This document shows positions 1,755 to 18,990 of a stretch of DNA of 64,000 nt, one piece after another; position 1 is the first letter of the stretch; the number at the start of each line of letters is the position of its first letter. The position numbers were made by a program, and so were the translations under genes. Source of the DNA: Sinorhizobium sp. 8-89 (GTDB lineage: Bacteria > Pseudomonadota > Alphaproteobacteria > Rhizobiales > Rhizobiaceae). Location of the stretch: NCBI RefSeq assembly GCF_030124325.1, contig NZ_JASKLR010000003.1, positions 1 to 64,000 on the forward strand. The letters run 5' to 3'. The notes beneath the pieces were generated by a model that saw only the letters and a list, made by a program, of their open reading frames with translations, searched no databases and was not told the DNA's origin.

Positions 1755-2399
1755 ATGAACTTCGATGTAGGAAACGTCTCTCACGCGCTTGGGGCCATGG
1801 CGCATGCCCATCGGCTGCTCATCCTCGAATTACTTCTCGAGCGCGAATGGTCTGTTGGCACGCTCGCCGTTCGGGTCGGGCTCAGGCAGGCGACATTATC
1901 GCAGTATCTGGCGAAACTATGCGTGGCAGGCGTTGTCCAATACCGGCGAGAAGCGCAGACGGTTCTTTATTCATGCCGCTCCGACTTCATCATGCGCATC
2001 ATGGACGTACTGAAAAAACGTCGACGAGGCGCTGTTGAGCCAAGACGAGCGTTCTGGAGTTGTGATCTGGTTCGCGCAGGCGTGGATCAGACGCGGCAGC
2101 CGGAAGCCGCCGCGCCTTGTCGATCATTCGGCCGCGAGCGTCTGCTCGCCGCTGTTCAGCGTCATCAGCCTCCTGGCGCGCGCGAGGCTTTCGGGCTGTT
2201 CGTTGCGGTACCGAGCGCCGATTTCCATCATCAGGACAGTGTCGGGCAGGAATTCGAGTTCGCTGAAAATGCTATCCCAGTCGATATCACCCCAGCCGAG
2301 CGGCATGTGCAGGTCGCCTATGCCGAGCGCAGTCGATTCCTGCGGGTGGAACGCCTTGTAAAATCCTTGCGGGCGGCCGAAGGAATCATGGACATGTAG
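1755..2399 (+). CDS. ArsR-family (NolR-like) winged-helix regulator with anomalous 3' end
   Basis: Residues 1-86 form a clear ArsR/NolR-like winged helix: a MAHAHRLLILELL helix, the recognition segment QATLSQYLAKL, and a wing with RREAQTVLYS. A normal protein of this type is 95-120 residues. Here the frame runs on to 2399, about 275 bases into the convergent isomerase gene, and the extra 120 residues look like antisense read-through. A run of six A at 2013-2018 sits exactly at the end of the domain. A change of one base there would end the protein at 2038 (94 residues) or switch it to a third frame ending LKNVDEALLSQDE. The domain call is firm; the true C-terminus is not settled and the gene could be damaged. 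Confidence 0.6.
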   Translation: MNFDVGNVSHALGAMAHAHRLLILELLLEREWSVGTLAVRVGLRQATLSQYLAKLCVAGVVQYRREAQTVLYSCRSDFIMRIMDVLKKRRRGAVEPRRAFWSCDLVRAGVDQTRQPEAAAPCRSFGRERLLAAVQRHQPPGAREAFGLFVAVPSADFHHQDSVGQEFEFAENAIPVDITPAERHVQVAYAERSRFLRVERLVKSLRAAEGIMDM

Positions 2400-3038
2400 A
2401 TGCCCGGCGACCGGCGCCATGGCGCGAAGCTGTTCGCGAAAATCGAGCCCGCGGTAGGTCGATTCGATATAGGCGTGGCTGAAGTCGATCAGCGCCACCA
2501 GGTTAGGGTGACCGACCGCCTTCACCGTTTCCGCCAGCTCGACGGGCGTCTGCCGGTATTGTCCCGGTTCAGTGGTGAAGATGTTTTCGAACGCGATGCG
2601 CACACCATAGGGCTTGCAGAACTCGGCGAGCTCGAACAGGGCTTCCCGCTCGCACCGATCGGCGGCCGCCCGATCGAAGATCTGGTCGGCACGCAGATAG
2701 CCGCCATGCTGCACGAGAATACGCGCATCGATCCGGTCACATAGCTCGACCAGCGCCTTCGCCGCGTCGATCTGGTAGCGGCAGGTGACTGGGTCCATGA
2801 AGTTCGACGATACGAGGCCGTGGACTGTATAGCGGAAATCGAACTGGTTGGTGAGCGCCACGAGCCTGTCGGCTCTTTCCTTGATGATGCGGCCGCCGGC
2901 GATAAGGTCGAGGCTGGTGAGCCCCAGTTCAACCGTGTCGACGCCGACTCCTGCAAGGCGGTGCAGGTCCGCTTCGAGACTGTCCAACTCGCCGTCGGTC
3001 GAGCCGGAATTGAAGCCTGTCGCGATGATATTGCCCAT
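2124..3038 (-). CDS. TIM-barrel sugar phosphate isomerase/epimerase family protein
   Basis: A 304-residue AP-endonuclease-2-type TIM barrel, the fold of xylose isomerase-like epimerases. Expected metal-binding positions are visible: Glu in IAFENIF, Asp-His in IDFSHAY, His in HLHVHDSFG, and a late Glu in MMEIGARYR. The ATG at 3038 follows GGAG by 7 bases and precedes the conserved beta strand IIATGFNSG; the longer open frame upstream has no homology-like sequence. It is the last gene of the minus-strand transporter operon, 29 bases after the phosphodiesterase gene. I infer that it converts the free sugar or sugar phosphate released by its neighbours; the substrate cannot be read from the sequence. 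Confidence 0.82.
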   Translation of the reverse strand: MGNIIATGFNSGSTDGELDSLEADLHRLAGVGVDTVELGLTSLDLIAGGRIIKERADRLVALTNQFDFRYTVHGLVSSNFMDPVTCRYQIDAAKALVELCDRIDARILVQHGGYLRADQIFDRAAADRCEREALFELAEFCKPYGVRIAFENIFTTEPGQYRQTPVELAETVKAVGHPNLVALIDFSHAYIESTYRGLDFREQLRAMAPVAGHLHVHDSFGRPQGFYKAFHPQESTALGIGDLHMPLGWGDIDWDSIFSELEFLPDTVLMMEIGARYRNEQPESLARARRLMTLNSGEQTLAAE

Positions 3039-3067
3039 TGTTCGTCTCCGATCGTATGATGTTGGGA

Positions 3068-3817
3068 TTATGCGTTGACCAATGTCTGCGCGCGCAGTTT
3101 CAGCGCCAGATCCGGGCTGTCGGAGGTAAGGTGTCCGATGCCGCGGTCGAGCCATTTGCGGATGAGTTCTTCATCGTTCAGCGTCCACGTGCAGAGCCGG
3201 TCGAGCGGCATGGTCCTGGTGACGAGGTCCCATTCGCGCTCCATCAATTCGTGATGGATAGCGATGATCTCGACCAGATCGTCGACGCGGCCGAGAAAGC
3301 TCTGCAGTCCACCCTGCTTGTCGGCCCACGCCGCGTTGACGGAGACGAGCCGCCGGATGTGCGGCGCATGGCAACGGCAAAGCTCGAGGACCGACGTGTC
3401 GAAGGAGGTGAGATAGCTGCGGTCGTCAAGGCCGAAGCGGGCGATCTCTGACGCCACCTTCTCGACGATAACCGGGTAGGGCGTGCCGGTTGCGTCGGAC
3501 TTGATCTCCACGTGCAGCGTCTTGTCCTTTGCCGGGGCGAGCACCGAGAGCACGTCGGCAAGAGTGGGGATGTTCTCGTCAGTGCCGCTCAGCCTGATCC
3601 GTGCACGGGTTTCGGGTGTGAGCGCGCGTACCGCACCTTCGCCCTCGGCCGTCCGTTCGAGCGTTGCGTCATGGATGACGACGAGCTCTCCAGCGTCTGT
3701 CAGGTGCACGTCGAATTCGACGGCGTCCACCTCGAGCGCAAGCACGTTGCGAAAGCCCGTCAGGGAATTTTCCGGCCAGAGATTGCGGCCGCCGCGATGT
3801 CCGGTGATGAGGGTCAT
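3068..3817 (-). CDS. glycerophosphodiester phosphodiesterase (GDPD/UgpQ family)
   Basis: A 249-residue cytosolic GDPD-family enzyme that hydrolyses a phosphodiester to an alcohol and a phosphorylated product. The N-terminal GHRGG with PENS, then EFDVHLT and VIHDATLERT, supply the catalytic histidines and metal ligands, and HVEIKSD gives a further Glu. I chose the ATG at 3817, preceded by AGGA at 7 bases. A GTG at 3850 overlaps the permease stop (GTGA) and would add 11 residues. It has no signal peptide, so the substrate must be imported first, which fits its place directly after the ABC transporter genes. In the Agrobacterium agrocinopine operon a GDPD-like protein (AccF) has the same position and role. 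Here that assignment is inference. Confidence 0.88.
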   Translation of the reverse strand: MTLITGHRGGRNLWPENSLTGFRNVLALEVDAVEFDVHLTDAGELVVIHDATLERTAEGEGAVRALTPETRARIRLSGTDENIPTLADVLSVLAPAKDKTLHVEIKSDATGTPYPVIVEKVASEIARFGLDDRSYLTSFDTSVLELCRCHAPHIRRLVSVNAAWADKQGGLQSFLGRVDDLVEIIAIHHELMEREWDLVTRTMPLDRLCTWTLNDEELIRKWLDRGIGHLTSDSPDLALKLRAQTLVNA

Positions 3818-3846
3818 TAGCTGGTCCTGTGGAGTATCGGAACGGT

Positions 3847-4743
3847 TCACCGCACCGTCGGATCGAGCGTGTCGCGCAGCCAGTCTCCGACGAGCGAGAT
3901 CGACAGCGTGGTCAGCATGATGACGAGTGCGGGGGCGAGCATGGTCCAGGGTGCGCGCGTGAGGTATTCGCGTCCGAAGCCCACCATGTTGCCAAGGCTG
4001 GTTTCCGGCGGTTGCACGCCGAGGCCGAGGAAGGAGAGGCCGCTTTCCATCAATATGATCTCAGGGAAGGTCAGCGTCATCGACACGATGAGCGTGGAAG
4101 CAACGTTGGGCAGGATGTGGCGCAGATAGACTCTCGTCGGTGTCGCCCCCAACTGCACCACGGCGGCGGCATATCCCTGCGCGCTTGCGGAAATCGCCAG
4201 GCCACGGGCGATGCGCGCGTAACGCTCCCAGCCATAAAAGCCCATCAGGCAGACCAGAAGCAGCATGGACGAGCCGAAAAAGGCGAGTACGGCAAGCGAC
4301 ATGATCAGAAACGGCAGAGCGGCCTGAAAATCGGCGAGCACCAGCACGAGATGTTCGACCGCACCACGGAATTTGGCAGCGGCAAAACCGAGCGCCGTTC
4401 CGAAGACCGCCGACAGGATCGTTGCGCCAAAAGCGATGACGAGCGAGACGCGGATCGACTGGATGAGGCGGGAGAGCACGTCGCGGCCCAGCTCATCGGT
4501 GCCCAACCAGTGCGCGGCATTGCCGGGCGATGCGAGCCGGTTGGTCAGATCCATCGCGGTGATGCCGTAGGGCCTCAAGGAGTCGGCAAAGCAGGCCACC
4601 AGGACCATGGCCGCCAGCCAGAAAATGCCGAGCCCGACCGAAAAAGGTACGTGGCGGCGAAGATACGAGATCAGCCCGAGGACGCCGCTGCGCGCCGATT
4701 GCGGTTGTGCCGATTGCTTTTGTGCCATGTCTGCCGACGTCAT
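3847..4743 (-). CDS. ABC transporter permease, DppC/OppC class
   Basis: A 298-residue inner-membrane permease of the peptide/nickel/opine importer class. It has an N-terminal membrane segment at about 35-55, an OppC-type periplasmic stretch with LGTDELGRDVLSRL, and a BPD_transp_1 core with the coupling loop ATPTRVYLRHILPN. GAGGAAC lies 6 bases before the ATG. It follows the DppB-type gene by 9 bases and its stop touches an alternative GTG of the phosphodiesterase gene. It should pair with the 4753-5679 permease to form the channel. The substrate is unknown; the neighbours point to a phosphodiester rather than a peptide. Confidence 0.9.
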   Translation of the reverse strand: MTSADMAQKQSAQPQSARSGVLGLISYLRRHVPFSVGLGIFWLAAMVLVACFADSLRPYGITAMDLTNRLASPGNAAHWLGTDELGRDVLSRLIQSIRVSLVIAFGATILSAVFGTALGFAAAKFRGAVEHLVLVLADFQAALPFLIMSLAVLAFFGSSMLLLVCLMGFYGWERYARIARGLAISASAQGYAAAVVQLGATPTRVYLRHILPNVASTLIVSMTLTFPEIILMESGLSFLGLGVQPPETSLGNMVGFGREYLTRAPWTMLAPALVIMLTTLSISLVGDWLRDTLDPTVR

Positions 4744-4752
4744 CGCCGTTCC

Positions 4753-5679
4753 TCAATGTGCAGTTTGCGCGCGCAGGCGCGGGTCGAGCCAACCGTAGAG
4801 CAGATCGACGACAAGATTCGAGATAACCATGGTGGCCGCGATCATCAGGAGGATGCACTGGACGACAGCCAGATCGCGGTTGGTGACGGATACCACCAGA
4901 AGGCGTCCGATGCCGGGCCATGAAAAAATCGACTCGACCACGACGGCGCCGGCGATCAGCGAACCGACCATGAAGCCGACAATGGTGACGATCGGCACTG
5001 CCGCGTTCGGCAAAGCATGGCCCCAGACGACGTCCGACCACTTCAGCCCCTTTGCGGAGGCCGTCCGGATGTAGGGCTGGCCCATCACTTCGATCATGGC
5101 GCTGCGCGAGAAGCGCGCCAGGATGCCGATCCCGCCGATGCTCATGGTGATGGTCGGAAGGATGCTATGCATCCATGTGTCCTGACCGCCAGAGGGAAGA
5201 ACGCCGAGGATCACCGAGAAGATCAACACCAGCAGCAATCCCATGACGAAGGAAGGGATGGTGAAGCCGAAAATCGCCAGCAGGATCACGCCGCGATCGG
5301 CAAAGCTCTGCCGATGAAGGGCTGCGTACACACCCGCCGGGATGCCGATCAGGAGCTTCAGCAGGAGCGCCGGAAGGGTCAGTTGCAGCGTCGCCGGAAT
5401 GCGCTCCAGAACGAGTTGCAAGGCCGAGACCTTGTCGCGCATCGAGACGCCGAAATCTCCGGAGAAGATCGATTTGATGTAGGCGAGATATTGCACCCAG
5501 AGGGGCTGATCCAGCCCCCACGCCTTGCGGAAGGCGTCCACAGCGTCCTGCGGAACATCCGGTCCGAGCATGACCTGTGCCGGATCGCCCGACATGCGCA
5601 GCACGACGAAAGCGAAGGTGACAACGGCGAAAATGGTCATCACGGCGCGAAGCAGGCGGGTAAGAACGAAGCGTATCAT
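4753..5679 (-). CDS. ABC transporter permease, DppB/OppB class
   Basis: A 308-residue permease with six predicted membrane segments. It opens MIRFVLTRLLRAVM and carries the OppB-type segment with RMSGDPAQVMLGPD, then the late EAA-like loop GLKWSDVVWGHALPNA. The ATG at 5679 has GGGAGG five bases upstream, so I prefer it to the GTG at 5685 that lies within the ribosome site. It sits 12 bases after the second ATPase gene and 9 bases before the partner permease. The class includes importers of dipeptides, nickel, opines and agrocinopines. The operon context favours a sugar phosphodiester. Confidence 0.9.
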   Translation of the reverse strand: MIRFVLTRLLRAVMTIFAVVTFAFVVLRMSGDPAQVMLGPDVPQDAVDAFRKAWGLDQPLWVQYLAYIKSIFSGDFGVSMRDKVSALQLVLERIPATLQLTLPALLLKLLIGIPAGVYAALHRQSFADRGVILLAIFGFTIPSFVMGLLLVLIFSVILGVLPSGGQDTWMHSILPTITMSIGGIGILARFSRSAMIEVMGQPYIRTASAKGLKWSDVVWGHALPNAAVPIVTIVGFMVGSLIAGAVVVESIFSWPGIGRLLVVSVTNRDLAVVQCILLMIAATMVISNLVVDLLYGWLDPRLRAQTAH

Positions 5680-5691
5680 CGTCACCTCCCG

Positions 5692-6678
5692 TTATGCGGC
5701 GACCGGCGCGGTTTCGCCGGGGACCAAGTGACAGGCCGCGGTTCGACCATTTCCGATCGAACGAAGATCCGGCGCGCTTGTCCGGCAGATGTCGCTCGCC
5801 AGGGGGCACCGAGGGTGGAACGCGCATCCGGAGGGACGTTTGGCGGGGTTCGGCGGCTCGCCCTGGAGGATCCTGCGCCCCTCGAGTATCTTGCCCGGAA
5901 CAGGTACGCTCGATACCAGGGCCTCAGTGTAAGGATGTCTGGGCGAGTGAAAAATCACGTCGGAGGATGCCTCCTCGACGATCTGTCCGAGATACATCAC
6001 GGCGACACGGTCCGCGATGTTGCGCACGACTTTCAGGTCATGGCTGATAAAGATCATGGCGATCCGATTCTGTTCCTGAAGGTCGCGCAGCATGTTGACC
6101 ACCTGCGCCTGGATGGAGACGTCCAACGCCGAAACAGGTTCATCGCAGACCAGTAATCGCGGACGGGAAGCGAGCGCCCTTGCGATGACCGCGCGCTGAC
6201 GCTGGCCGCCCGAAAGCTCGTGCGGAAAACGGCCCGCCTGATCTCGGCGCAAGCCGACGGCGGACATGAGTTCCTCGACACGGGCGGCACGATGTTCCTT
6301 CGGAATGAGCTTGTGAATATTCAGGGGCTCTCCGATCTGGGTGGCGATCGTCAACCGCCGGTCGAGTGCGGCAAGCGGGTCCTGGTAGACGAATTGCATT
6401 CTGGCGCGTAGCGCCCGCCATTCGGCCGTACCGGGGGGTGCCATCGGCTTGCCCTCGAATTTAACCTCACCGGATTGCGCCGGATCGATGCCGAGGAGCA
6501 TGCGCCCCAGCGTGGATTTTCCGGATCCCGATTCGCCGACGATGCCAAGGGTTTCGCCGGGCATCAGTTTGATCGAGACCCCGTTCACCGCGCGAACGGG
6601 GGTCGGCTTGCCAAAGAGGCCGCGACGGATCTGATAGATCCGTACCAGGTTATTGGCTTCGAGGAGGGCGCTAGTCAC
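5692..6678 (-). CDS. ABC transporter ATP-binding protein, DppF/OppF class
   Basis: A 328-residue nucleotide-binding subunit. Walker A is GESGSGKST near residue 50, the signature is LSGGQRQR, Walker B is LLVCDEPVSALD, and the H-loop is FISHDL. The C-terminal oligopeptide-transporter extension with a Cys-rich GCAFHPRCPLASDIC segment is present, where members of this class can bind an iron-sulfur cluster. The start is a GTG whose first base is the last base of the previous stop (TAGTG), so translation is probably coupled to the 6678-7676 gene. It should form a heterodimer with that ATPase under the two permeases. Confidence 0.9.
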   Translation of the reverse strand: MTSALLEANNLVRIYQIRRGLFGKPTPVRAVNGVSIKLMPGETLGIVGESGSGKSTLGRMLLGIDPAQSGEVKFEGKPMAPPGTAEWRALRARMQFVYQDPLAALDRRLTIATQIGEPLNIHKLIPKEHRAARVEELMSAVGLRRDQAGRFPHELSGGQRQRAVIARALASRPRLLVCDEPVSALDVSIQAQVVNMLRDLQEQNRIAMIFISHDLKVVRNIADRVAVMYLGQIVEEASSDVIFHSPRHPYTEALVSSVPVPGKILEGRRILQGEPPNPAKRPSGCAFHPRCPLASDICRTSAPDLRSIGNGRTAACHLVPGETAPVAA

Positions 6679-7676
6679 TATACGGCTTCCAGAGTTCGTG
6701 TCCTGACCGGTGGCGCCGAGACGACGGGAACGGGCCTATGGCAGGCCAGCCGCCGGCCATCATGTATCGGCTCAAGGTTCGGCAAGTCGCTGCGACAAGC
6801 CTCCACGGCGCGCCCGCAGCGGGGAGAGAAGGCGCATCCGGCGGGAAGATTTTTTGGATTCGGCACGGTGCCGGTGATTGGGATCAGCCGCTGGCGGGGA
6901 CCATCGATCCGCGGGATCGCGTCGAACAGGCCGCGGGTATAGGGATGGCGCGGTTCGGCGAACAACTGCTCCATCCGGCCCTGTTCGACGATGCGGCCGG
7001 CATACATGGCGCAGACGCGCTCGCAGACCTGCGACACGGCGCCAAGATCGTGACTGATGAACACCATCGCCATGCCGGTTTCGGCCCGAAGTTGGACGAG
7101 AAGGTCGAGGATTTGCGCCTGGATCGTCGCGTCGAGCGCGGTCGTCGGCTCGTCAGCGATAAGGAGATCAGGTTGACCGGCAAGCGCCATCGCGATCATC
7201 AGCCGCTGGCACTGGCCGCCGGAAAATTCGTGGGGGTAGAGATCGAAGCGGCGCCGGGCATCCGGAATGCCGACCATGTCCATCAGTCTGAGGGCTTCAG
7301 TTTTGGCCGCCTCACCATGAAGCCTGCGATGGATCGCGAGTGCTTCGGTGATCTGTCGTCCGATACGGATCACGGGATTGAGGGAACTCGATGGGTCCTG
7401 GAAGATCATTGCGATCCGGCCGCCACGAACCTCCTCCAGCACATGGCGGGAGCCACCGCAGATTTCGCGGCCTTCGATCCGAACGGAACCGGTGACGCTC
7501 GCCTTGCCCGGAAGCAGGCCCAGCGCCGCAAGCCAGGTCACCGATTTGCCGCAGCCGGATTCGCCGACAAGCCCCACGGACTCGCCGCGCCCGACATCAA
7601 GGTCGATGCCGTGCAGGACCTGGACGCCGTCAAAAGCAACTCTCAGACTGCGCAATTCCACGAGGTTGGGGATCAT
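6678..7676 (-). CDS. ABC transporter ATP-binding protein, DppD/OppD class
   Basis: A 332-residue ATPase with Walker A GESGCGKS, signature FSGGQCQRL, Walker [13 protein letters not shown] and H-loop FISHDL, and the Cys-rich C-terminal extension of the oligopeptide class. The ATG at 7676 has an excellent ribosome site, AAGGAGGT with a 7-base spacer; the much longer upstream open frame is antisense noise over the binding-protein gene. It overlaps the next ATPase gene by one base. A hairpin lies between it and the binding-protein gene, suggesting that the membrane components are made at a lower level. Confidence 0.9.
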
Positions 7677-7734
7677 TCCACTGACCTCCTTCGATGTCCG
7701 CGCTTGCGTGCCTTCCGGTTCGCAACTGCGCTTG

Positions 7735-7777
7735 CTGAAAAGGGGAAAGACACCGGGACTTCGGGCCACCGGTGTCT
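7735..7777 (-). terminator. intra-operon hairpin/attenuator between binding protein and ATPase genes
   Basis: On the minus strand AGACACCGG pairs perfectly with CCGGTGTCT (7748-7777, 12-base loop), followed by TTTCCCCTTTT. Such structures after binding-protein genes commonly cause partial termination or protect the upstream mRNA, giving excess binding protein. The interrupted T run suggests partial rather than full termination. Confidence 0.5.
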
Positions 7778-7789
7778 CTTGTTTGGGGA

Positions 7790-9418
7790 TCACATGGTCC
7801 AGTTGCTGGCACGGAAGTCCATTGCAAAGGCCGGAGCAGCCTTCCACTTCAGCGACGACTTCATGCCGGTGAAGACGGCGTTCTGGTGCAGGACCTGATA
7901 GACTGGGTCTTCGCGCTCGCAGATTTCGAGCATGCGGGCGAAGGCCTTCTTGCGCAGGGCCGGATCGGTGCTGGTCTCCAGAACGACCGACAGTTCGTTT
8001 GCCTCGGCATTGGTCCAGTCCTTCTTCTGCTGGACTTCGCTGTTCGGACCGAACTGGGCGACCATCGGCGTTACGGGGTCGTTGATATTGGCCGAAGCCG
8101 ACCAGTCGCGGACGCCCTTCACGCCGGACGGATCGTGGATCTGGCCCCAGTTTTCCTTCATTTCGATCTGGACGTTCAGGCCCACCTGTTTCCACATCTC
8201 CACCATGACCTGACCGTTGGCGGTCTGGTTGGTGTAGTAGTTGTTGAGCAGGCGGAAGGGGATCGGATCACCTTTGTATCCCGCCTGTTTCAGAAGGTCC
8301 TGGGCCAATTGCGGATTGTATTCGGGCGCTTTCCAGTCCTTGATGAACATGTCGCCATAGGATGAGAATTGGAGCCCGTCCGGAATCACGGTCTGGCCGG
8401 CCCAGAGCGCATCGACGATCGCCTGGCGGTCGATCGAATGCGTCATGGCGCGGCGCACGAGCGGATCCGCCAATACCGGATTCTGTACGTTGAAGACCGA
8501 AATGCGGTGGTTGAGAATGGTCGAACCCTGCACTTCGAAGCCCGAAGCGGCGCGAACGGCGCCGATCTGGTCCGGCGGTAGGTCGCAGGCAAAATCATAT
8601 TCGCCGGAGAGCAGACCGTTCACACGGGACGAAACTTCGGGAACTTCTACGAAGCGGATTTCTTCTAGCGGCGGGCGGCCACCCCAATATTCGTCGAAGG
8701 CAACCAGCGTCAGGGAAACGTCCGGCTTGTACTCGCCGACCATATAGGGGCCGGTCGTGACCGGCTTGCGGGCCCAATCGGCGTAGGTCGCAGCTTCGTC
8801 CCAAGCGCGGCGGTTTGCGATCTGGCTGCCGAATGCATAAAGGCGACCTTCGAGCGTGACGTCCGGCGTCGCATTGTGGAAGCGCACGGTATACTTGTCG
8901 ACGGCTTCCACGCCGGCGAGCGCCGGCCAGAGACGACGGCCGATGCCCGGAACGGAGGCAGGCAGTTCCTTCGCCGTCGTGGGCTTGTGTTCATCGGCGA
9001 AGATCGTCTTGCCGCCGGCGGGCTGGGTATCGCCGAAGAGGCGTTGGGCCGAGAAGCTGAAGACGACATCGTCGGAGGTCAGTTCGTCGCCATTGTGGAA
9101 CTTGACGCCCTGGCGCAGCTTGAGTTCAAGCGTCTTGTCGTCAATCCGCTTCCATTCGGTGGCGAGACCCGGCACCGGACCCTGGCTGCCCATCCAGTCG
9201 CGCAGGATCAGGCCTTCCCAGAAATTGGGGAAGAAAACGCGCTCGCCGACGTTCGACTGTTCGTTCCAGATGTCGAGGGTGTTGTTGTTGGTGATCTTCT
9301 GGACGGCGATCGTGACGGAAGGGCGCTTGCCCTGACTGAAGGCCATGCGCGGCATTATCAGGCTGCCGGCGGTGGCTCCCATTAGTCCAAGCGCGCTGCG
9401 TCGGGTGATTGAAAGCAT
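7790..9418 (-). CDS. periplasmic substrate-binding protein of peptide/opine ABC transporter (SBP_bac_5)
   Basis: A 542-residue binding protein of the large cluster-C type. The N-terminus MLSITRRSALGLMG has a twin-Arg-like motif followed by a hydrophobic core, indicating export. Family hallmarks include the early segment LDIWNEQ, the FHNGDELTSDDVVFSF motif and late helices with MVEMWKQVGLNVQIEMKE. AGGAGAG precedes the ATG by 7 bases. It is the second gene of the operon after the HAD phosphatase, with a 128-base gap. AccA, the agrocinopine-binding protein of Agrobacterium, belongs to this same class. The ligand here is inferred to be a phosphodiester because of the downstream phosphodiesterase. 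Confidence 0.92.
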   Translation of the reverse strand: MLSITRRSALGLMGATAGSLIMPRMAFSQGKRPSVTIAVQKITNNNTLDIWNEQSNVGERVFFPNFWEGLILRDWMGSQGPVPGLATEWKRIDDKTLELKLRQGVKFHNGDELTSDDVVFSFSAQRLFGDTQPAGGKTIFADEHKPTTAKELPASVPGIGRRLWPALAGVEAVDKYTVRFHNATPDVTLEGRLYAFGSQIANRRAWDEAATYADWARKPVTTGPYMVGEYKPDVSLTLVAFDEYWGGRPPLEEIRFVEVPEVSSRVNGLLSGEYDFACDLPPDQIGAVRAASGFEVQGSTILNHRISVFNVQNPVLADPLVRRAMTHSIDRQAIVDALWAGQTVIPDGLQFSSYGDMFIKDWKAPEYNPQLAQDLLKQAGYKGDPIPFRLLNNYYTNQTANGQVMVEMWKQVGLNVQIEMKENWGQIHDPSGVKGVRDWSASANINDPVTPMVAQFGPNSEVQQKKDWTNAEANELSVVLETSTDPALRKKAFARMLEICEREDPVYQVLHQNAVFTGMKSSLKWKAAPAFAMDFRASNWTM

Positions 9419-9546
9419 CTGGATCCTCTCCTTCTACAAGGGACAACTCAAAAAGCGCAGAAATCTGTCTTGTGCATTCCGGGTGTCGGCTTCTTGATAA
9501 TCCTGTGAATTTTCAGTGACATCGCTTGCATCCTCGAGGGCGCCAG

Positions 9547-10266
9547 TCATACCGGCGTTGGAATTTTCACCGCGCGCTCGGCCGGATGAACGGGTGCTGC
9601 GGAAAAGACGGTGCTCAAGGCCGCCGACAGTTCCGCGACGCCGGTGGCGACCAGTGTCGCGCCCGCCTCGGCGAGCACCGCGCTACGCCCCTCGCGAGGG
9701 TCGGTAGGGTCGATGAAGCCGATCGCGCTCATCCCGGCGGCGACGGCGCCGGCAATTCCGTGAGGGCTGTCGTCGATCACCAGGCACTTGTCTGGATCGA
9801 CGCCAAGAGTCTTGGCACACAGCAGGAAGAGATCGGGCGCAGGCTTGGCACGCGCGACCATGTCGGCGCTGAAGATGTTCGGGGCGAATTCATCCCAGAG
9901 ATCGAAGAGACCGAGACTGTTCTCCAACCGCTCCATAGTGCTGTTGGATGCGACACATTTCATATGCGGCAAGGAGCGGATAAGCTCTGCGATGCCCGGC
10001 ATCGGCGCCAGCGACCGGGCGAACTCGGCGTAGAGATTGTCCCGGGCATCCGCAAAAATACCGTCGGCGTCCTTGAGCCCCAGTTCCTGGATACAAATGC
10101 CCCTTGCATCCGCCTCCGAATAACCGGTGAACCGCTTGTGCACCTCGGCATGGGACAATGTTGCGCCAGCGCGCTGCAACGCCTTCCAAAAGACACGGCT
10201 TGCGACAGGTTCGCTGTCTATCAACACGCCGTCGCAATCGAAAATAAGCAGTTCTGGGGTCATCAT
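9547..10266 (-). CDS. HAD-superfamily sugar-phosphatase-like hydrolase
   Basis: A 239-residue cytosolic phosphatase of the beta-phosphoglucomutase-like HAD group. Motif I is FDCDGVLIDSEP (nucleophile Asp near residue 10), motif II is SNST, motif III Lys is in AKPAPDLFL, and motif IV is VIDDSPHG. The cap domain lies between motifs I and II. Two adjacent ATG codons exist (10266, 10263). It is the first gene of the minus-strand operon and divergent from the SorC-type regulator. I infer that it dephosphorylates the sugar phosphate released by the GDPD enzyme, but HAD substrate cannot be read from sequence. Confidence 0.85.
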   Translation of the reverse strand: MMTPELLIFDCDGVLIDSEPVASRVFWKALQRAGATLSHAEVHKRFTGYSEADARGICIQELGLKDADGIFADARDNLYAEFARSLAPMPGIAELIRSLPHMKCVASNSTMERLENSLGLFDLWDEFAPNIFSADMVARAKPAPDLFLLCAKTLGVDPDKCLVIDDSPHGIAGAVAAGMSAIGFIDPTDPREGRSAVLAEAGATLVATGVAELSAALSTVFSAAPVHPAERAVKIPTPV

Positions 10267-10470
10267 GATGCACGTGCCTGGTGGTGGTTATGCGGGCATG
10301 CTGGAATGCAGGAAGGCGAACTCCCGAAGAGTTTCGGATTGCCGTTTTCCAATTCGGTTGCTGACCGGCTCGCTCGGCGTGAGAATTGCCTTTGGCCGAG
10401 CGACCGTGTTGCGCTGCTTCTAGGTTACAATTGTTACGCCGATGTGACATTTGTTCAGGAGGAATTGAGC
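10267..10470. promoter_or_regulatory. divergent promoter region of the phosphodiester operon and its SorC-type regulator
   Basis: This 204-base region must hold both promoters. The stretch 10430-10455 contains an 8-bp palindrome ACAATTGT inside GGTTACAATTGTTACG, followed by TGACATTTGTTCA directly before the regulator's AGGAGG. These are reasonable operator candidates for the SorC protein. No confident -35/-10 pair could be assigned. Confidence 0.4.
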
Positions 10471-11427
10471 TTGGACATCCAGGAACTGATGGTGAAGGCG
10501 TCGTGGCTCTACCACGTGGAAGGTCTCACGCAGGCAGAGATCGGCGAACGGATGAATCTCACGCGGCGTCGGGTGAATGAGCTGCTCGCCGCCGCGTTGC
10601 ACAAGGGCATCGTGCGGGTCAACTTCAATTCCCCGCTTGCGGAGAGTATCGAACTGGAAGCGCAGCTATGCAGGCGCTTCGGCCTCCAGGAAGCTGTGGT
10701 CGTGCCCACGCCCTTGGATTCCGGCCAGATGCATGCCGTGCTCGGCCGTGCCGCCGCCGCTTTCCTCGATCGCCTGATCCACGTCCGCAAACCAGGCGCC
10801 ATCGGTGTGGGCTGGGGCGCGACATTGCGTGAGACGGTGCAGCATCTGACGGCGAGGAACGAGCCGCATATCGAAGTCTGCTCCATGATGGGTGGGCTGA
10901 CGCGCGGTTCTGAAATCAACACCTTCGAGATCGTGCGTAGCTTCGCTGCGGTTCTCAATGCCAAGTGCCACTATTTCGCGGCACCGATCTATGCGAGCAG
11001 CGAGCAATCGCGCGACGTCATCGTTGCGCAGCCGGTGTTTCAGGAACTGCTTCGGGAAAGTTCAAACGTCGATATGTCCTTCCTGAGCGTCGGCGATGTC
11101 ACCGACCAGTCCCTGCAAGTCCGCTACGGACTGCCGCTGCAAAGCGACATACGGGAGCTTGTTGCGACCGGTGCCGTGGGCGATTTGCTCGGGCACTACC
11201 TCGATGCCGAAGGGAGACCTGTCGATCATCCGCTCAATCGCCAGGTCATCTCGCCAGAGCTTGCGGACTATCTCGGCATTCCCTGCCGCATAATCGCGTC
11301 GGGTGGATCCCATAAGCGCGCCATTCTCTTGGCCACGATAAAGGCACGTTTGGCAACCGCGCTCGTTACGGACTCCGATAGCGCCCGTTGGCTGCTCTTG
11401 CAGTCCCCGGCGGAGGCCGGCCGTTGA
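10471..11427 (+). CDS. SorC/DeoR-type sugar-phosphate-sensing transcriptional regulator
   Basis: A 318-residue regulator. The N-terminal helix-turn-helix (about 10-50) carries LTQAEIGERMNLTRRRVNELL, and the rest is the sugar-phosphate isomerase-like effector domain with GVGWGATLRE and GDVTDQ segments, as in SorC family proteins that sense phosphorylated sugars. The start is a TTG at 10471 with AGGAGG at an 8-base spacing; the long in-frame extension upstream runs through the divergent HAD gene and is not credible. Its position facing the operon and its effector class support control of that operon by a sugar phosphate. This is inference. Confidence 0.88.
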   Translation: MDIQELMVKASWLYHVEGLTQAEIGERMNLTRRRVNELLAAALHKGIVRVNFNSPLAESIELEAQLCRRFGLQEAVVVPTPLDSGQMHAVLGRAAAAFLDRLIHVRKPGAIGVGWGATLRETVQHLTARNEPHIEVCSMMGGLTRGSEINTFEIVRSFAAVLNAKCHYFAAPIYASSEQSRDVIVAQPVFQELLRESSNVDMSFLSVGDVTDQSLQVRYGLPLQSDIRELVATGAVGDLLGHYLDAEGRPVDHPLNRQVISPELADYLGIPCRIIASGGSHKRAILLATIKARLATALVTDSDSARWLLLQSPAEAGR

Positions 11428-11577
11428 TCAGCCGCGCTGGCCGAGATCGATCAATTGCTAACCCATTTGAGGACGAGGTCTGTCGCTCAACGGGATTGCA
11501 ATAAACTGGTTTCACATCGACGTGAGCTTCGGTGTCAGCGTGATGATTTCCTCGAGCATCCACCCTAGGGTGCGTCG

Positions 11578-12585
11578 ATGATCAAGCTGGTTGCTGCATT
11601 TCTGTCGTTCCTGGCATTCCTGCCCTTTGCGATCGCGCAGGAGGTCCCCTCCGTGCCTTCGCTGCTCGATGGCCTTGCTGCCCGCGACGATCTGAATGCA
11701 TTGAAAACCGTCGTCATTGCCCGCGACGGCGAGGTCGTCGCGGAACGCGGCTATCGCGGTCATACGCCTCGGGAATCGACCAATATCAAGTCGGCATCGA
11801 AGGCTATCGTGTCTGCGCTTGTCGGCATTGCGATCGACAAAGGTCTGCTCGAAGGGCCGGATCAGAAGATCGCGCCGATCCTGAAAAGCGAGCTACCGGC
11901 TTCACCGGACCCGCGAATCAACGACATCACGATCGGCAACCTGCTTTCGATGCAAGCGGGACTTGGACGGATGTCGGGGCCGAACTATGGACGCTGGGTC
12001 TCCAGCCGCAATTGGGTTCGTTTTGCACTCGCGCAGCCATTCGACGACGAGCCGGGAGGGCGGATGCTTTACTCGACGGCCTCTACCCATCTCCTTTCGG
12101 CGATCCTGACGAAAGTCGGCGGCAAATCTACCCTGGCGCTCGCGCGCGAGTGGCTAGGGCCGGTCGAAGGCTTCCGGATCGGAGCCTGGGAGCGCGATCC
12201 GCAGGGCATCTATCTCGGCGGCAACCAGATGGCGATGAGCGCCCACTCGCTGCTTGCGTTCGGAGAACTTTACCGCAATCGCGGCAGGACGGCGGAGGGC
12301 CGGCAGATCGTTCCGGAAGATTGGATCGATTCCTCATGGCAGGCGCGCACCAACTCCCGTTTCTCAGGCGATGCCTATGGCTACGGTTGGTTCGGACGGC
12401 AGATCGGCGGCGAGGACGTGTATTTCGCCTGGGGATATGGTGGCCAGATGCTCTATATCGTGCCGTCGCTGCAGCTCACCGTCGTGATGACCTCGGAGGA
12501 GAGCGGGCCGTCGGCGCGCAATGGCTATCGTGACGCACTGCATGGTGTCATGGCCGATATCGTAAGAACGGTTCGCGCATCCTGA
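11578..12585 (+). CDS. exported serine hydrolase, beta-lactamase/esterase family
   Basis: A 335-residue class-C beta-lactamase-related hydrolase. Residues 1-20 form a signal peptide ending AIAQ. The active-site SxxK motif is SASK in NIKSASKAIV, the Tyr motif is YSTAS in GRMLYSTAS, and a late FAWGYGGQ corresponds to the third active-site region. This branch includes esterases and 6-aminohexanoate-dimer hydrolases as well as lactamases, so antibiotic resistance should not be assumed. The ATG is preceded by a weak TAGGGTG site at 7 bases. It stands alone between the SorC gene and the convergent oxidase operon. Confidence 0.85.
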   Translation: MIKLVAAFLSFLAFLPFAIAQEVPSVPSLLDGLAARDDLNALKTVVIARDGEVVAERGYRGHTPRESTNIKSASKAIVSALVGIAIDKGLLEGPDQKIAPILKSELPASPDPRINDITIGNLLSMQAGLGRMSGPNYGRWVSSRNWVRFALAQPFDDEPGGRMLYSTASTHLLSAILTKVGGKSTLALAREWLGPVEGFRIGAWERDPQGIYLGGNQMAMSAHSLLAFGELYRNRGRTAEGRQIVPEDWIDSSWQARTNSRFSGDAYGYGWFGRQIGGEDVYFAWGYGGQMLYIVPSLQLTVVMTSEESGPSARNGYRDALHGVMADIVRTVRAS

Positions 12586-12619
12586 AGGTGAGCCCACCAC
12601 AAGAATGGCATCCGCGCCT

Positions 12620-12958
12620 TCACTGTCCCGCGCCGAAGAACGCGAGTCGGGTGAAGAGCACGTAGTTCGATTCCGACACCATCAGGGCCACGAAAACCAA
12701 TACGAGGAGGGGCGGCAGCAGGATCGCATAGGTCAGCGCGAGGCGCTCCCAAGCCATGTGCATGAACACAGCGACGATGAGACCAGCCTTAAGCATCATG
12801 AAGATCAGGATCAGCGACCAGCGCAGATAGCCCTCAAGGCCGAGGTAGTCCACCATGTAGGAAAAAGCGCTGAGGACGAACAACAGTCCCCAGACCAGAA
12901 GATAAAGCTTGATCGGGTGGTGCTGCTGCTGCTCGGCATGCGCCTCTACCGTAGCCAT
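12620..12958 (-). CDS. cytochrome c oxidase subunit IV family protein
   Basis: A 112-residue protein with three predicted membrane helices (about 18-40, 45-68, 78-100), starting MATVEAHAEQQQHH. It contains MMLKAGLIVAVFMHM, typical of the prokaryotic COX4/CyoD-like small subunit. GAGGAGGG lies 5 bases before the ATG. It is the last gene of the oxidase operon, 10 bases after a subunit III gene. In related heme-copper oxidases this subunit helps CuB insertion and stability and is not catalytic. Confidence 0.85.
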   Translation of the reverse strand: MATVEAHAEQQQHHPIKLYLLVWGLLFVLSAFSYMVDYLGLEGYLRWSLILIFMMLKAGLIVAVFMHMAWERLALTYAILLPPLLVLVFVALMVSESNYVLFTRLAFFGAGQ

Positions 12959-12968
12959 GATGCCCTCC

Positions 12969-13691
12969 TCACCAGAGATAGAAGAATGCAAAGATGAAGA
13001 CCCAGACCAAATCGACGAAGTGCCAGTAGAGGCCGGTGATCTCGACGATCTCGTAGTGACCCTTGCGGCTGGTGAAGAAACCGCGCCGCTCCGTATCGAA
13101 ATCGCCGCGCCAGACCTTGCGGGCGATGATCAGCAGGAAAATCACGCCGAACGTGACGTGGGTGCCGTGAAAGCCGGTGATCATGAAGAAGGTCGAGCCG
13201 AACTGCGCCGCTCCCCAGGGATTGCCCCAGGGCCGCACGCCTTCGGCAATGAGCTTCGACCATTCGAAGGCCTGCATCCCGACGAAAGTTGCGCCGAACA
13301 GCGCGGTCAGAAGCATCAAAGCGGCCGTCTTGCGGCGGTCGCGGCGGTAACCGTAATTGACGGCCATCGCCATGGTGCCGCTGCTGGAGATGAGCACGAA
13401 CGTCATGATCGCGATTAGGATCAGCGGCACATGGACGCCGCCGATCTCCAGCGCGAAGACCTCGCTCGGGTTCGGCCAGGGCACGGTTGTCGACATGCGC
13501 GCCGACATGTAGGCGATCAGGAAGCAGCCGAAAACGAACGTATCGCTCAGGAGAAAGATCCACATCATGGCCTTTCCCCAGGAGACGTTCTTGAATGCCC
13601 GCTGGTCCGAGGCCCAGTCGGAGGCAAAGCCGGCGAGGCCGGACGAGCGGGGCAGCGGTTCCAAGGCAGACGGCTTTAGCGGAGCAGACAT
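12969..13691 (-). CDS. cytochrome c oxidase subunit III family protein (first of two)
   Basis: A 240-residue integral membrane protein of the COX3 family. It has a soluble N-terminus of about 40 residues, then SDTFVFGCFLIAYMSAR, GMQAFEWSKLI, FMITGFHGTHVTFG and a terminal GLYWHFVDLVWVFIF helix, all COX3 landmarks. AGGAACG lies 5 bases before the ATG. It lies 10 bases from its neighbours on both sides. A second COX3-like gene follows in the upstream direction. Bradyrhizobium coxMNOP also has two subunit III-related genes (coxO, coxP); I do not assign which is which. Confidence 0.87.
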   Translation of the reverse strand: MSAPLKPSALEPLPRSSGLAGFASDWASDQRAFKNVSWGKAMMWIFLLSDTFVFGCFLIAYMSARMSTTVPWPNPSEVFALEIGGVHVPLILIAIMTFVLISSSGTMAMAVNYGYRRDRRKTAALMLLTALFGATFVGMQAFEWSKLIAEGVRPWGNPWGAAQFGSTFFMITGFHGTHVTFGVIFLLIIARKVWRGDFDTERRGFFTSRKGHYEIVEITGLYWHFVDLVWVFIFAFFYLW

Positions 13692-13701
13692 GTCAGCGTT
13701 C

Positions 13702-14400
13702 CTATGTCAGCAATTGACGGCAGAGGTCGACGACGTCGTTGGCCCAACCGGAAAAGAGGGCGAAGAGAACCACCCAGACGGCCAGCATGAAATGCCAATA
13801 CGTGGCGCAGAGCCCGATCGCGAGACGCGTCCGCCGGTCGATCGGCGCGTCCCATGTGCGCAGCGTGACGCGCCCCAGCGCCGCAAGACCGCCGACGATG
13901 TGCAGGCCGTGCATTCCGGTGATCATGTAGAAAAAGCTGTTGGCGGGGTTGCCGCTCAAGAGATAGCCGGCGGAAGAAAGCGCTCGCCAGGCGAAAAGCT
14001 GTCCGACGAGGAAGGCGAGGCCAGCGGCGAGCGCGACGAGCAGGCTGGTCCGTGCCGCCTCGTCATTCCGGCGCTCGGCTTCGACCTTTGCCCAATGCAG
14101 TGTCACGCTGCTCACGACGAGAACGCCGGTATTGATCCACAGGAAGCGCGGCAGCGGCATTGGCGACCAGTCGGACGAGGCCATGCGCATGAAGTAGGCG
14201 CTGATGAAAAGCGTGAAGAGCGCGCCGACAACGGCGAGAAACACGCCGAGACCGATCTTGGCGGCCGGCACCGGCTCGATGCCACGGTGGTCGTGCGTGT
14301 GCCCAACTTCCAGCCACGGTTTCGAGGCCAGTCGCTGCTGTGCCAGCCACCAGGCGATGATGACGGCGATGACCGCCAGGAAGACCATCACGACCGTCAT
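13702..14400 (-). CDS. cytochrome c oxidase subunit III family protein (second of two)
   Basis: A 232-residue COX3-like membrane protein. An N-terminal helix (MTVVMVFLAVIAVIIAWW) is followed by a His-rich loop with HTHDHRG, then FISAYFMRM, FFYMITGMHGLHIVGG and ATYWHFMLAVWVVLF. Its start overlaps the subunit I stop by four bases (ATGA), so translation is coupled. It is shorter and more divergent than the other subunit III here. Together they may be two specialised copies or a heteromeric arrangement as in coxMNOP-type oxidases. Confidence 0.82.
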   Translation of the reverse strand: MTVVMVFLAVIAVIIAWWLAQQRLASKPWLEVGHTHDHRGIEPVPAAKIGLGVFLAVVGALFTLFISAYFMRMASSDWSPMPLPRFLWINTGVLVVSSVTLHWAKVEAERRNDEAARTSLLVALAAGLAFLVGQLFAWRALSSAGYLLSGNPANSFFYMITGMHGLHIVGGLAALGRVTLRTWDAPIDRRTRLAIGLCATYWHFMLAVWVVLFALFSGWANDVVDLCRQLLT

Positions 14401-16178
14401 GAAGCGGCCTCATGGGACATGCGTCCGGGTGCCGGCTGGTTCTGTGGAATGAAGTCCTCGGGCGCGCCCGGGACGCTATAGTCGTAGGCCCAGCGATAGA
14501 CGACCGGCAGTTCCTTGCCCCAGTTGCCGTGGGGCGGCGGCGTTTCGGGTGTTTGCCATTCGAGAGTCGTTGCGCGCCAGGGATTACCGCCGGCCTCTCT
14601 GCCGTGGCGCAGGCTCCAGACCAGGTTGAAGAGAAAGACGATCTGGGCGGCGCCGACGATGAGCGCTGCGACGCTGATGAACGCGTTGAGGCTGTGAACG
14701 GAGTCCGTCACGAACGACGCATCGCCAAGCTCGTGGTACCGCCGCGGCACGCCAACAAGGCCGAGATAGTGCATCGGGAAGAAGATCGCATAGGCACCAA
14801 GGAAGGTGACCCAGAAATGCAACTGACCGAGCGCCTCGTTGAGCATGCGTCCGGTAACCTTGGGATACCAATGGTAGATCGCACCGAAGATGACGAGAAT
14901 CGGCGCAACACCCATCACCATGTGGAAATGCGCCACCACGAACATGGTGTCGGATAGCGGCACATCGACGACGACATTGCCGAGGAAGAGGCCGGTCAGC
15001 CCACCATTGACGAACGTGACGATGAAGGCGAGCGCGAAAAGCATCGGCAATGTCAGGTGAATGTCGCCGCGCCAAAGCGTCAACACCCAATTGTAGACCT
15101 TGATTGCTGTCGGCACGGCGATGATCAGGGTCGTGGTCGCGAAGAAGAAACCGAAATACGGGTTCATGCCGCTGACGTACATATGGTGCGCCCAGACCAC
15201 AAAGGAGAGCGCGCCGATGATGACGATCGCCCAGACCATCATCCGGTAGCCGAAGATGTTCTTGCGGGCATGGGTGCTGATAAGATCGGAAACGATGCCG
15301 AACGCGGGCAGGGCGACGATATAGACTTCCGGATGGCCGAAGAACCAGAAGAGGTGCTGGAACAGGATCGGACTGCCGCCGCCATATTCCAACTGCTCTC
15401 CCATCTCGGCGATCGCCGGCATGAAGAAGCTCGTACCGAGCAGGCGGTCGAAGAGCATCATGACGCAGGCGACGAACAGTGCCGGGAAGGCGAGAAGCGC
15501 CATGACCGTGGCGGTGATGATGCCCCAGACCGTCAGCGGCATGCGCATCAGCGTCATGCCACGGGCCCGGCCCTGCAGGACGGTGACGACATAATTGAGG
15601 CCGCCCATCGTGAAGCCGATGATGAAGATGATCAGCGAAGAGAGCATGAGGATGATGCCCCAGTCCCTGCCGCCCGGTGTATTGGAGAGAATCGCCTGCG
15701 GCGGATAGAGCGTCCAGCCTGCCCCGGTCGGTCCGCCGGGCGCGAAGAAGCTTGCGGCCAGCACCAGCACCGCGAGCAGATAGATCCAGTAGCTCAGCAT
15801 GTTCGCGTAGGGAAAGACCATGTCGCGAGCGCCGACCATCAGCGGAATGAGATAGTTGCCGAAGCCGCCGAGGAAGAGCGCGGTAAGCAGATAGATGACC
15901 ATGATCATTCCATGCATGGTGATGAACTGGTAGTAGCGTTCCGCATCGATCAGTTCGAAGGTGCCGGGAAAGCCGAGTTGCAGGCGGATCAACCAGGAGA
16001 GCACCAGCGCGACCATGCCGATGGCGATTGCCGTCGTCGAGTATTGGATGGCGATGATCTTCGCGTCCTGGCTGAAAACGTATCGGGTCCACCAGCTGTG
16101 CGGATGATAAAGTTCAACATCCTCGACTTCGGCGGGCGGGACCGCCTCGCCAATACCTGACCGGACGTCGACCATCAT
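14397..16178 (-). CDS. coxN: cytochrome c oxidase subunit I, CoxN type
   Basis: A 593-residue heme-copper oxidase subunit I, the catalytic O2-reducing and proton-pumping subunit. Ligand motifs are visible: the low-spin heme His in ITMHGMIMV, the CuB His with the cross-linked Tyr in FGHPEVYIVAL, the CuB His pair in WAHHMYVSG, and the heme His residues in VVAHFHMVMG. Twelve or more helices are expected. GGGAGG precedes the ATG. The overlap with the downstream subunit III gene is ATGA. A RIME lies between it and the subunit II gene upstream. No heme A synthesis or CuB assembly genes are in this cluster, so it depends on factors encoded elsewhere. Confidence 0.95.
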   Translation of the reverse strand: MMVDVRSGIGEAVPPAEVEDVELYHPHSWWTRYVFSQDAKIIAIQYSTTAIAIGMVALVLSWLIRLQLGFPGTFELIDAERYYQFITMHGMIMVIYLLTALFLGGFGNYLIPLMVGARDMVFPYANMLSYWIYLLAVLVLAASFFAPGGPTGAGWTLYPPQAILSNTPGGRDWGIILMLSSLIIFIIGFTMGGLNYVVTVLQGRARGMTLMRMPLTVWGIITATVMALLAFPALFVACVMMLFDRLLGTSFFMPAIAEMGEQLEYGGGSPILFQHLFWFFGHPEVYIVALPAFGIVSDLISTHARKNIFGYRMMVWAIVIIGALSFVVWAHHMYVSGMNPYFGFFFATTTLIIAVPTAIKVYNWVLTLWRGDIHLTLPMLFALAFIVTFVNGGLTGLFLGNVVVDVPLSDTMFVVAHFHMVMGVAPILVIFGAIYHWYPKVTGRMLNEALGQLHFWVTFLGAYAIFFPMHYLGLVGVPRRYHELGDASFVTDSVHSLNAFISVAALIVGAAQIVFLFNLVWSLRHGREAGGNPWRATTLEWQTPETPPPHGNWGKELPVVYRWAYDYSVPGAPEDFIPQNQPAPGRMSHEAAS

Positions 16179-16193
16179 GTTCCTCCCCGTTCG

Positions 16194-16302
16194 CTACCGC
16201 ATGTTTCCTCAGATCGGAGCCGATTCAGGGGCAAAAACATGCAGTAATTCAAAGTGCTACGGCGACCCTGTGCGTCCGATGAAGACGCCCGGCGCCGTAG
16301 TG
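16194..16302 (+). repeat. RIME-like repeat, copy 2, between oxidase subunit II and I genes
   Basis: It begins CTACCGCATG, passes through AACATGCAGTAATTCAAAGTGCTACGGCG and ends GGCGCCGTAG. It occupies almost the whole 137-base gap inside the oxidase operon, so its RNA hairpins will be in the cox mRNA between the subunit II and subunit I genes. Confidence 0.85.
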
Positions 16303-16315
16303 TTCCTGGCGCCTC

Positions 16316-17158: not shown

Positions 17159-17301
17159 TTCTTGTCCCTCCTCGCCGTGATCGGCTGTGGGCATGAATAC
17201 GCAATCCGCAGAGTTCCGATCACGATTATTGCACGAACGGAAAATAGTCGCAAATCGCCAGAAAGGGTTGTTATCAGGCTCCCTTTCGCGCGTGAGTTTG
17301 G

Positions 17302-18985: not shown

Positions 18986-18990
18986 GGTAA

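Follow-up and report, generated by a model that had tools for sequence, protein, structure and literature searches.

An acc-like operon in Sinorhizobium sp. 8-89 that probably serves the import and cleavage of a sugar or polyol phosphodiester

Gene content and organization of the locus

The stretch of DNA analysed here, referred to as the window, comprises 64,000 nucleotides of Sinorhizobium sp. 8-89 (contig NZ_JASKLR010000003.1, positions 1 to 64,000), and the locus in question is a minus-strand operon near its beginning that encodes a cluster C binding protein, the four further subunits of an ATP-binding cassette (ABC) importer, a GDPD-family phosphodiesterase, a HAD phosphatase and a TIM-barrel protein, and that faces a SorC-type regulator (Table 1). 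This gene set and its arrangement had been proposed in an earlier reading of the letters alone (the sequence-only reading), which likened the locus to the agrocinopine (acc) operon of Agrobacterium; gene calls and Pfam searches recovered all operon genes where that reading had placed them, with the named Pfam matches above cut-offs. A start of the sorC gene at 9526 is wrong, that open reading frame (ORF) being a read-through; inspection of ribosome-binding sites points to TTG 10471, eight bases past an AGGAGG at 10457-10462, as the likely start. The ATPase in the AccB position starts at GTG 7685 or, alternatively, at an ATG nine bases later.

Table 1. Genes and features of the operon and its divergent regulator
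Feature	Position	Strand	Evidence
AP_endonuc_2 TIM-barrel protein, 304 aa	2124..3038	-	Pfam E 1e-35
GDPD-family phosphodiesterase, 260 aa	3068..3850	-	Pfam E 1e-25
ABC permease, AccE position	3847..4743	-	BPD_transp_1; 51% to pTiC58 AccE, 36% to NikC
ABC permease, AccD position	4753..5685	-	BPD_transp_1; 48% to pTiC58 AccD
ABC ATPase, AccC position	5692..6678	-	ABC_tran+oligo_HPY; 44% to pTiC58 AccC
ABC ATPase, AccB position	6678..7685	-	ABC_tran+oligo_HPY; 45% to pTiC58 AccB
AccA-clade cluster C binding protein, 542 aa	7790..9418	-	SBP_bac_5 E 1e-78; PDB search, tree, pocket residues
HAD-IA phosphatase, 239 aa; proposed to take the role of AccG	9547..10266	-	Pfam E 1e-22
Operator-like palindrome TTACAATTGTTA / TAACAATTGTAA	10425..10436	.	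Divergent intergenic region
SorC/DeoR-family regulator with sugar-binding domain, divergent from the operon	10471..11427	+	Pfam Sugar-bind E 3e-55

The binding protein and its pocket

Searched against PDB sequences, the binding protein matched AccA best, its entries scoring E 2e-79 to 3e-75; the family in second place came in at 2e-27. A genome scan returned 590 relatives among 594 pattern matches, and the best 80 of these 590 were used as the orthologue set. In a tree of 57 rows, built by a quick method with 16 of the 80 orthologues and accompanied by a long-branch warning, the protein falls into a clade of 36 rows (Shimodaira-Hasegawa-like approximate likelihood-ratio test, SH-aLRT, 100; stem 1.03) together with AccA of C58, three AccA proteins of K84 and paralogues from other rhizobia. 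Outside this clade are DppA, NikA, GsiB and 18 of the 19 other SBP_bac_5 proteins of the same genome. Within it, the window protein belongs to a subclade of its own (19 rows, support 100), separate from the AccA of Ti plasmids; its identity is 36% to pTiC58 AccA and 40-43% to AccA proteins of the pAtK84b type.

In C58 AccA, as described in the relevant passage of El Sahili et al. (PMC4526662), the phosphate is contacted by N54, Y375, Y376 and S419, and the sugar OH1 is held by N54, N284, S419 and E510. Eleven other single residues named in that passage fit the numbering of the sequence, and its Glu504 is a tryptophan at that number. All four phosphate contacts are kept in the window protein and in 80 of 80 orthologues, and N284 in 79 of 80, so that three of the four OH1 anchors are present in the window protein; as a set, the phosphate contacts are missing from 18 of the 19 other SBP_bac_5 proteins of the genome.

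The binding protein is patchily distributed in the genus, being full length in nine of 33 genomes and present as a fragment in one more. Genome G031 (L018, L178) holds a degenerate copy of the operon in which the binding-protein match stops after 179 residues, near the second permease; the transporter genes in between seem to have been lost through an internal deletion. A second AccA-clade binding protein is encoded in the genome of Sinorhizobium sp. 8-89 itself (own_L121; contig C55, 1-10709, L156) and keeps N54, N284, Y375, Y376 and S419; its locus also encodes a class III aminotransferase, a phosphodiesterase of family PF01663 and two ATPases.

Linkage of the operon genes

Linkage was counted in the 71 of the best 80 loci that offered at least 3 kb of 5' and at least 7.5 kb of 3' flank, by hits at E 1e-8 lying -4.5 to +9.5 kb from the start of the binding protein, with hidden Markov models built from the same loci; gene models in the fetched unannotated loci are mechanical ORFs. 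A GDPD gene was found in 63 loci, an AP_endonuc_2 gene of either of two types (see below) in 58, both in 50 and at least one in all 71. The HAD of the window type occurs in 30 and a SorC-type regulator in 37 (34 of the window type, three of another). Of the 20 SBP_bac_5 genes in the genome of Sinorhizobium sp. 8-89, this one alone has a gene for a GDPD or an AP_endonuc_2 protein less than 10 kb away, as judged from the coordinates by eye. As all 71 loci carry one of the two enzymes and only one of the 20 binding-protein genes at home is so linked, the clustering is more than chance.

The order of the genes varies: one locus (L025) has GDPD, HAD and a second kind of SorC regulator upstream, and Paracoccus loci such as L081 have GDPD followed by HAD and the second TIM-barrel type. 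All eight loci without a GDPD possess that second type, which invited the argument that an endonuclease IV-like enzyme replaces a missing GDPD; 50 of the 63 GDPD loci carry a TIM-barrel gene of either type as well, so this logic alone proves little and was set aside.

Given the Pfam family and the record names of its subunits, which are of the peptide/nickel type, the importer might have been an ordinary dipeptide or nickel transporter with unrelated enzymes downstream; moreover, one permease and one ATPase miss the cut-offs of a nickel and a dipeptide model by no more than about 15%. Against this stand the linkage kept over 71 loci despite several gene orders, and scores of the binding protein far below cut-offs for all listed NCBIfam dipeptide and nickel models. 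The permeases, too, are closer to AccD and AccE than to their E. coli Dpp, Nik and Gsi counterparts (36-39%; for that in the AccD position, 39% to GsiC and NikB and 37% to DppB). Firm placement with dipeptide or nickel binders, which the sequence-only reading had named, together with a lack of phosphodiester binding and induction, as fatal to its own proposal, was not seen in the phylogeny. Tree placement and AccA-type pocket residues together led us to reject a dipeptide or nickel importer as highly improbable.

Metal ligands and fold of the TIM-barrel protein

The product of 2124..3038 is usually annotated as sugar phosphate isomerase or TIM barrel protein, and the sequence-only reading took it for a sugar isomerase. 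Two types of TIM-barrel protein, sharing about 20-24% identity, occur across the loci, the second being a replacement found in Rhodobacterales. In an alignment of 34 rows from both types, H73, H111, E151, D185, H188, H215, D242, H244 and E272 are invariant; they align with H69, H109, E145, D179, H182, H216, D229, H231 and E261 of E. coli endonuclease IV, which we take to be the nine ligands of its three-metal site. All nine residue types were verified in the E. coli Nfo sequence, to which overall identity is very low. The nine are complete in 24 of 24 rows of the window type and 19 of 19 of the second type (43 of 43). No direct profile alignment could be obtained between the window type and E. 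coli Nfo. For the second type one was obtained, in which eight of the nine ligands are in register and H69 falls outside the aligned stretch; the two types can also be aligned to one another, and in multiple alignments all nine ligands line up.

Among the 21 other AP_endonuc_2 proteins of the genome, three to eight of the nine ligands stand in strict columns; if a shift of two residues is allowed, one protein (contig C40) has nine and the others at most seven. A GDPD gene is found about 4 kb away from the gene for this protein; the locus (10000-25101, L171), which also has genes for a phosphonate-type ABC transporter, is a candidate for another phosphodiester locus. None of the other 20 genes is within 10 kb of a GDPD gene (coordinates by eye). 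A full ligand set thus coincides with GDPD proximity in two of two against none of 20 cases, a probability of 1/231 when the window locus is counted and of 1/21 (one of one against none of 20) when that locus, which prompted the test, is left out; both values were calculated by hand.

AlphaFold models of the TIM-barrel proteins (mean predicted local distance difference test scores, pLDDT, of 87.6 and 90.4) were compared with known structures by Foldseek, which placed MJ1311 and TTHB071 first, followed by epimerases, with endonuclease IV first appearing at ranks 44 and 33. We know of no function for MJ1311 and TTHB071. With epimerases ahead and endonuclease IV slightly behind, the fold does not decide between a phosphodiesterase and a tagatose 3-epimerase.

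Relatives in agrocinopine regions and ugp operons

A tblastn search with a paralogue from the same genus matched 106 plasmid records, of which seven were examined, and pAtK84b separately. A TIM-barrel gene is present in the agrocinopine region of pAtK84b, of pAt2 from A. tumefaciens Yub002 and of pAvCG412, past accF, accG and a gene for a NUDIX protein (annotated in K84 as a conserved hypothetical protein). The K84 copy, Arad_14120, is identical to that of pAvCG412 and 76% identical to the window protein, and the acc-region protein nests inside the clade of operon enzymes (26 rows, 98/98), which holds all operon rows except the distant L084; L065, with mis-framed coordinates, was excluded from this tree. 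The view that the additional enzyme distinguishes the locus from acc can thus not be upheld. The part of PMC6546132 available to us names Arad_14120 among the ACC-region genes and gives no function for it there. On pTiC58 and pTiLMG305 a match spans 71% of the query, in pTiLMG305 near the agrocinopine synthase gene and a short piece of accF; such a fragment, mostly truncated and homologous to Arad_14120, is mentioned in the same text (PMC6546132). The partial match of pTiC58 lies away from acc, and none is found at the acc operon itself; since this plasmid serves the use of agrocinopines A and B, the enzyme is dispensable there.

A clade of its own (8 rows, 96/92) is made up of more distant paralogues, whose identity to the window protein is 54-57% in those compared; their genes come directly after ugpC in 11 of 11 contexts examined, comprising seven genomes of the genus, G065, Ensifer adhaerens, Rhizobium sp. 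CC1099 and Phyllobacterium. In one context the transporter was identified as UgpB-type by PDB matches and by an NCBIfam match (E 2e-99) that stays below the UgpB cut-off. E. coli has ugpQ, which encodes a GDPD, after ugpC; in the genus, no GDPD match (E up to 1e-10) was seen on the same contig within 100 kb of any of the 45 UgpB matches, as judged by eye. In two of five other ugp regions the next gene encodes a protein of 330 residues (L209 and L211; 81.5% identical to each other, with an Exo_endo_phos match in one only) that is possibly yet another phosphodiesterase in this position, and in the remaining three no such gene follows. The ugpQ slot hence seems to take different phosphoesterase folds, which favours a phosphodiesterase function for the TIM-barrel protein as well. 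A still more distant relative (37%) adjoins a tripartite tricarboxylate transporter instead.

That the TIM-barrel protein is a true isomerase or epimerase, acting on the phosphorylated or dephosphorylated sugar, agrees with record names such as 'sugar phosphate isomerase/epimerase', with the family and fold common to D-tagatose 3-epimerases (ahead of endonuclease IV in both fold searches and mostly so in profile searches of PDB sequences), with the four metal ligands of epimerases being a subset of the nine, and with the failed direct alignment of the window type to endonuclease IV. We nevertheless regard it as unlikely: nine ligands are invariant in two groups of such low mutual identity, 20 of the 21 other family members in the genome lack the full set, the sole exception (with its two-residue shift at one position) is the protein encoded near a GDPD gene, and a paralogue follows ugpC, where isomerisation of a sugar is not needed. 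Because the nine endonuclease IV ligands are kept and a paralogue occupies the ugpQ slot, the protein is, judged from sequence and gene context, probably a trinuclear-metal phosphodiesterase rather than an isomerase. The AP endonuclease 2 superfamily is known to include small-molecule phosphodiesterases, according to the part of the CbiR study available to us (PMC7733943); the CbiR profile itself matches the window protein at E 4e-5, far below its cut-off.

GDPD, HAD phosphatase and regulation

The GDPD contains the segments HRGG..PEN, EFD and IHD, which we take to hold the catalytic residues of this family. The HAD protein contains the segment DCDGVLIDS; its top NCBIfam matches are sugar-phosphate phosphatase equivalogs, which stay below cut-offs, and among the models shown only the broad HAD-IA model passes.

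The palindrome in the sorC-to-operon intergenic region, in the form TAACANNTGTAA, has a single match in the 64-kb window (10425-10436), with a chance expectation of 0.00. When five variants are allowed, chosen after inspection of these same regions, it is found in 30 of the 39 regions between sorC and the operon that were compared (one from the window and 38 from other loci), and the 38 whole loci contain 36 such matches on one strand in 787,245 bases. Of the nine regions without a site, five have misestimated bounds (L022, L029, L057, L059 and L060), and four (L021, L034, L050 and L058) truly lack it. The SorC-family regulator may thus bind the TTACAATTGTTA site. Control through a PHO box was rejected, with three matches in the window against 3.1 expected and none in the operon.

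These features bear on the possibility that the operon is a general scavenger of glycerophosphodiesters, a second Ugp-like system that would take up deacylated phospholipid head groups (glycerophosphoinositol, glycerophosphoglycerol and similar) for carbon and phosphate. GDPDs commonly act on glycerophosphodiesters, the TIM-barrel paralogue is located in ugpBAEC operons, and a pocket with a phosphate-binding site and hydroxyl anchors is still compatible with such ligands. In contrast, the binding protein is of the AccA and not the UgpB type, PHO-box-like sites are not enriched, and a sugar-type SorC regulator with a HAD phosphatase would better match a sugar phosphate; we therefore hold this explanation to be possible but doubtful.

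Comparison with known systems

The likeness to acc drawn in the sequence-only reading was borne out by the PDB matches, the AccA clade, the phosphate pocket and the gene order of pTiC58. There, the acc genes run regulator, binding protein, two ATPases, two permeases, GDPD and SuhB-type phosphatase; the window shares the run from binding protein to GDPD, an AccA-clade binding protein, a phosphatase and a regulator at the head. It has SorC and HAD in place of the DeoR-type AccR and the SuhB-type AccG, and the regulator stands as a difference from acc, as first described. The pAtK84b-type agrocinopine region (K84, Yub002 pAt2 and pAvCG412) shares these acc features and adds the TIM-barrel gene; at all nine AccA positions compared, the window protein has the same residues as two of the three AccA proteins of K84, one of them from the full acc operon. 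This region differs by two AccF-type GDPDs, a SuhB phosphatase, NUDIX and aldose epimerase genes and the quorum-sensing gene traR. In the window, the operon is flanked on one side by a glutathione synthetase gene and a small ArsR-like frame and on the other by cytochrome oxidase genes and one for a beta-lactamase-type serine hydrolase (the names ArsR-like and cytochrome oxidase come from translations read by eye), and no traR, gtfA or agrocinopine synthase is found among the ORFs named in its first 16 kb.

The ugpBAEC(Q) operon likewise combines an ABC importer with a subsequent phosphodiesterase in E. coli, or in some rhizobia with the TIM-barrel relative; UgpB, however, belongs to another family of binding proteins, and HAD and SorC are absent. 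We know of no uptake genes common to the window operon and the xanthosan system of Xanthomonas. The latter (XanT, XanP) resembles it in that a sugar phosphodiester serves as nutrient of a plant-associated bacterium, and differs in using a TonB-dependent transporter and a 2H phosphoesterase, as far as the available text describes it (PMC12807533).

Beyond the best 80 loci, phosphoesterases of several folds adjoin AccA-clade binding proteins: a GDPD in pTiC58 and pAtK84b; PehA in R. johnstonii 3841, whose binding protein is in the subclade of the window; an alkaline-phosphatase-type or PF01663 phosphodiesterase in S. meliloti AK83, S. garamanticum/G019, G001, G025, one locus of G007 and contig C55 of Sinorhizobium sp. 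8-89; a metallophosphatase with DUF1045 in a second G007 locus; two endonuclease IV-like proteins with all nine ligands in G058; and one of the second type in G054. This survey leaves out G006, G026, a third G007 locus, Bradyrhizobium and many other plasmid matches. The G054 locus (L157) has two binding proteins in tandem and, after the transporter genes, an ORF of 495 residues (14090-15577) without a Pfam match (E up to 1e-5). In S. meliloti AK83 pSINME02 (L109), in L110 and in S. garamanticum (L158), AccA-clade binding-protein and ABC genes adjoin asnB, a large aminotransferase and a formyltransferase, in L110 also a CDP-alcohol phosphatidyltransferase; these loci look like a phosphonate-type biosynthetic cluster with its own importer.

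Proposed function and biological meaning

Taken together, we consider it likely, on sequence grounds, that the locus, around which no Ti-plasmid genes were seen, is acc-like and handles a phosphodiester of a sugar or polyol; the ligand would most likely carry a hydroxyl beside the phosphate. The AccA-clade binding protein would capture a molecule in which a phosphate neighbours a free hydroxyl of the ring, and deliver it to the four-subunit ABC importer, and in the cytoplasm the GDPD, the endonuclease IV-like TIM-barrel enzyme or both would cleave the phosphodiester. The TIM-barrel enzyme might act on a second type of diester or on a cyclic 1,2-phosphate formed via the neighbouring hydroxyl; speculatively, GDPD chemistry beside a free hydroxyl could yield such a ring, which a three-metal enzyme could open. 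Chemical hydrolysis of a cyclic phosphate ring to glucose-1- and -2-phosphate has been reported (PMC7356202, in the part available). The HAD enzyme would then remove the phosphate from the released sugar phosphate, and the latter would relieve the SorC-family regulator at TTACAATTGTTA, so that the operon would be induced by its own product, by analogy with L-arabinose-2-phosphate acting through AccR.

Several observations weigh against this reading, in addition to the fold ranking given above. The comparison of the pocket with that of AccA, which the sequence-only reading had recommended, holds for the four phosphate contacts and N284 and fails at the fourth OH1 anchor, E510, which is Phe in the window protein and in 80 of 80 orthologues; further differences from AccA are found at Y145, W178, M372, T430 and E434. 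The objection from E510 is weakened by the same Phe in AccA of the complete acc operon on pAtK84b, a nopaline- and agrocinopine-catabolic plasmid according to the available part of a review (PMC4231840). The GDPD has only 27% identity to AccF, which falls within the 22-31% to other GDPDs of the genome, and this pairwise identity does not support orthology with AccF. Thirteen of the 71 loci are without an AP_endonuc_2 gene, eight without a GDPD and 41 without this HAD. Finally, neither a gene for making the ligand nor a source of it was found. Because AccF orthology, AccG, AccR and E510 all fail, the locus, by its sequence, is acc-like in its working and partial homology, and not an agrocinopine operon proper.

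Literature searches, in which the locus tag and window protein names were not queried and subscription papers were not covered, returned no paper on the operon or on the function of the acc-region TIM-barrel protein. More broadly, and to this we give even credence, the family annotated as 'sugar phosphate isomerase/epimerase' may constitute a new class of phosphodiesterases with an endonuclease IV fold and three metals, acting on small phosphodiesters of sugars and glycerol and serving three importers, namely this widespread operon, the pAtK84b-type agrocinopine operon and rhizobial ugp operons. The AccA-clade relatives are numerous in alphaproteobacterial genomes, as the 590 found attest, and include Rhodobacterales from marine water and diatom culture; either nature holds many such molecules that have been overlooked, or the range of phosphodiesters that this clade handles is wider. 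Judging from the xanthosan work, sugar phosphodiesters may have a more general role as nutrients where hosts and microbes interact (PMC12807533). If the reading of one enzyme class serving three importers is true, the use of agrocinopines by Agrobacterium would be one offshoot of a general sugar-phosphodiester diet of soil and marine Alphaproteobacteria.

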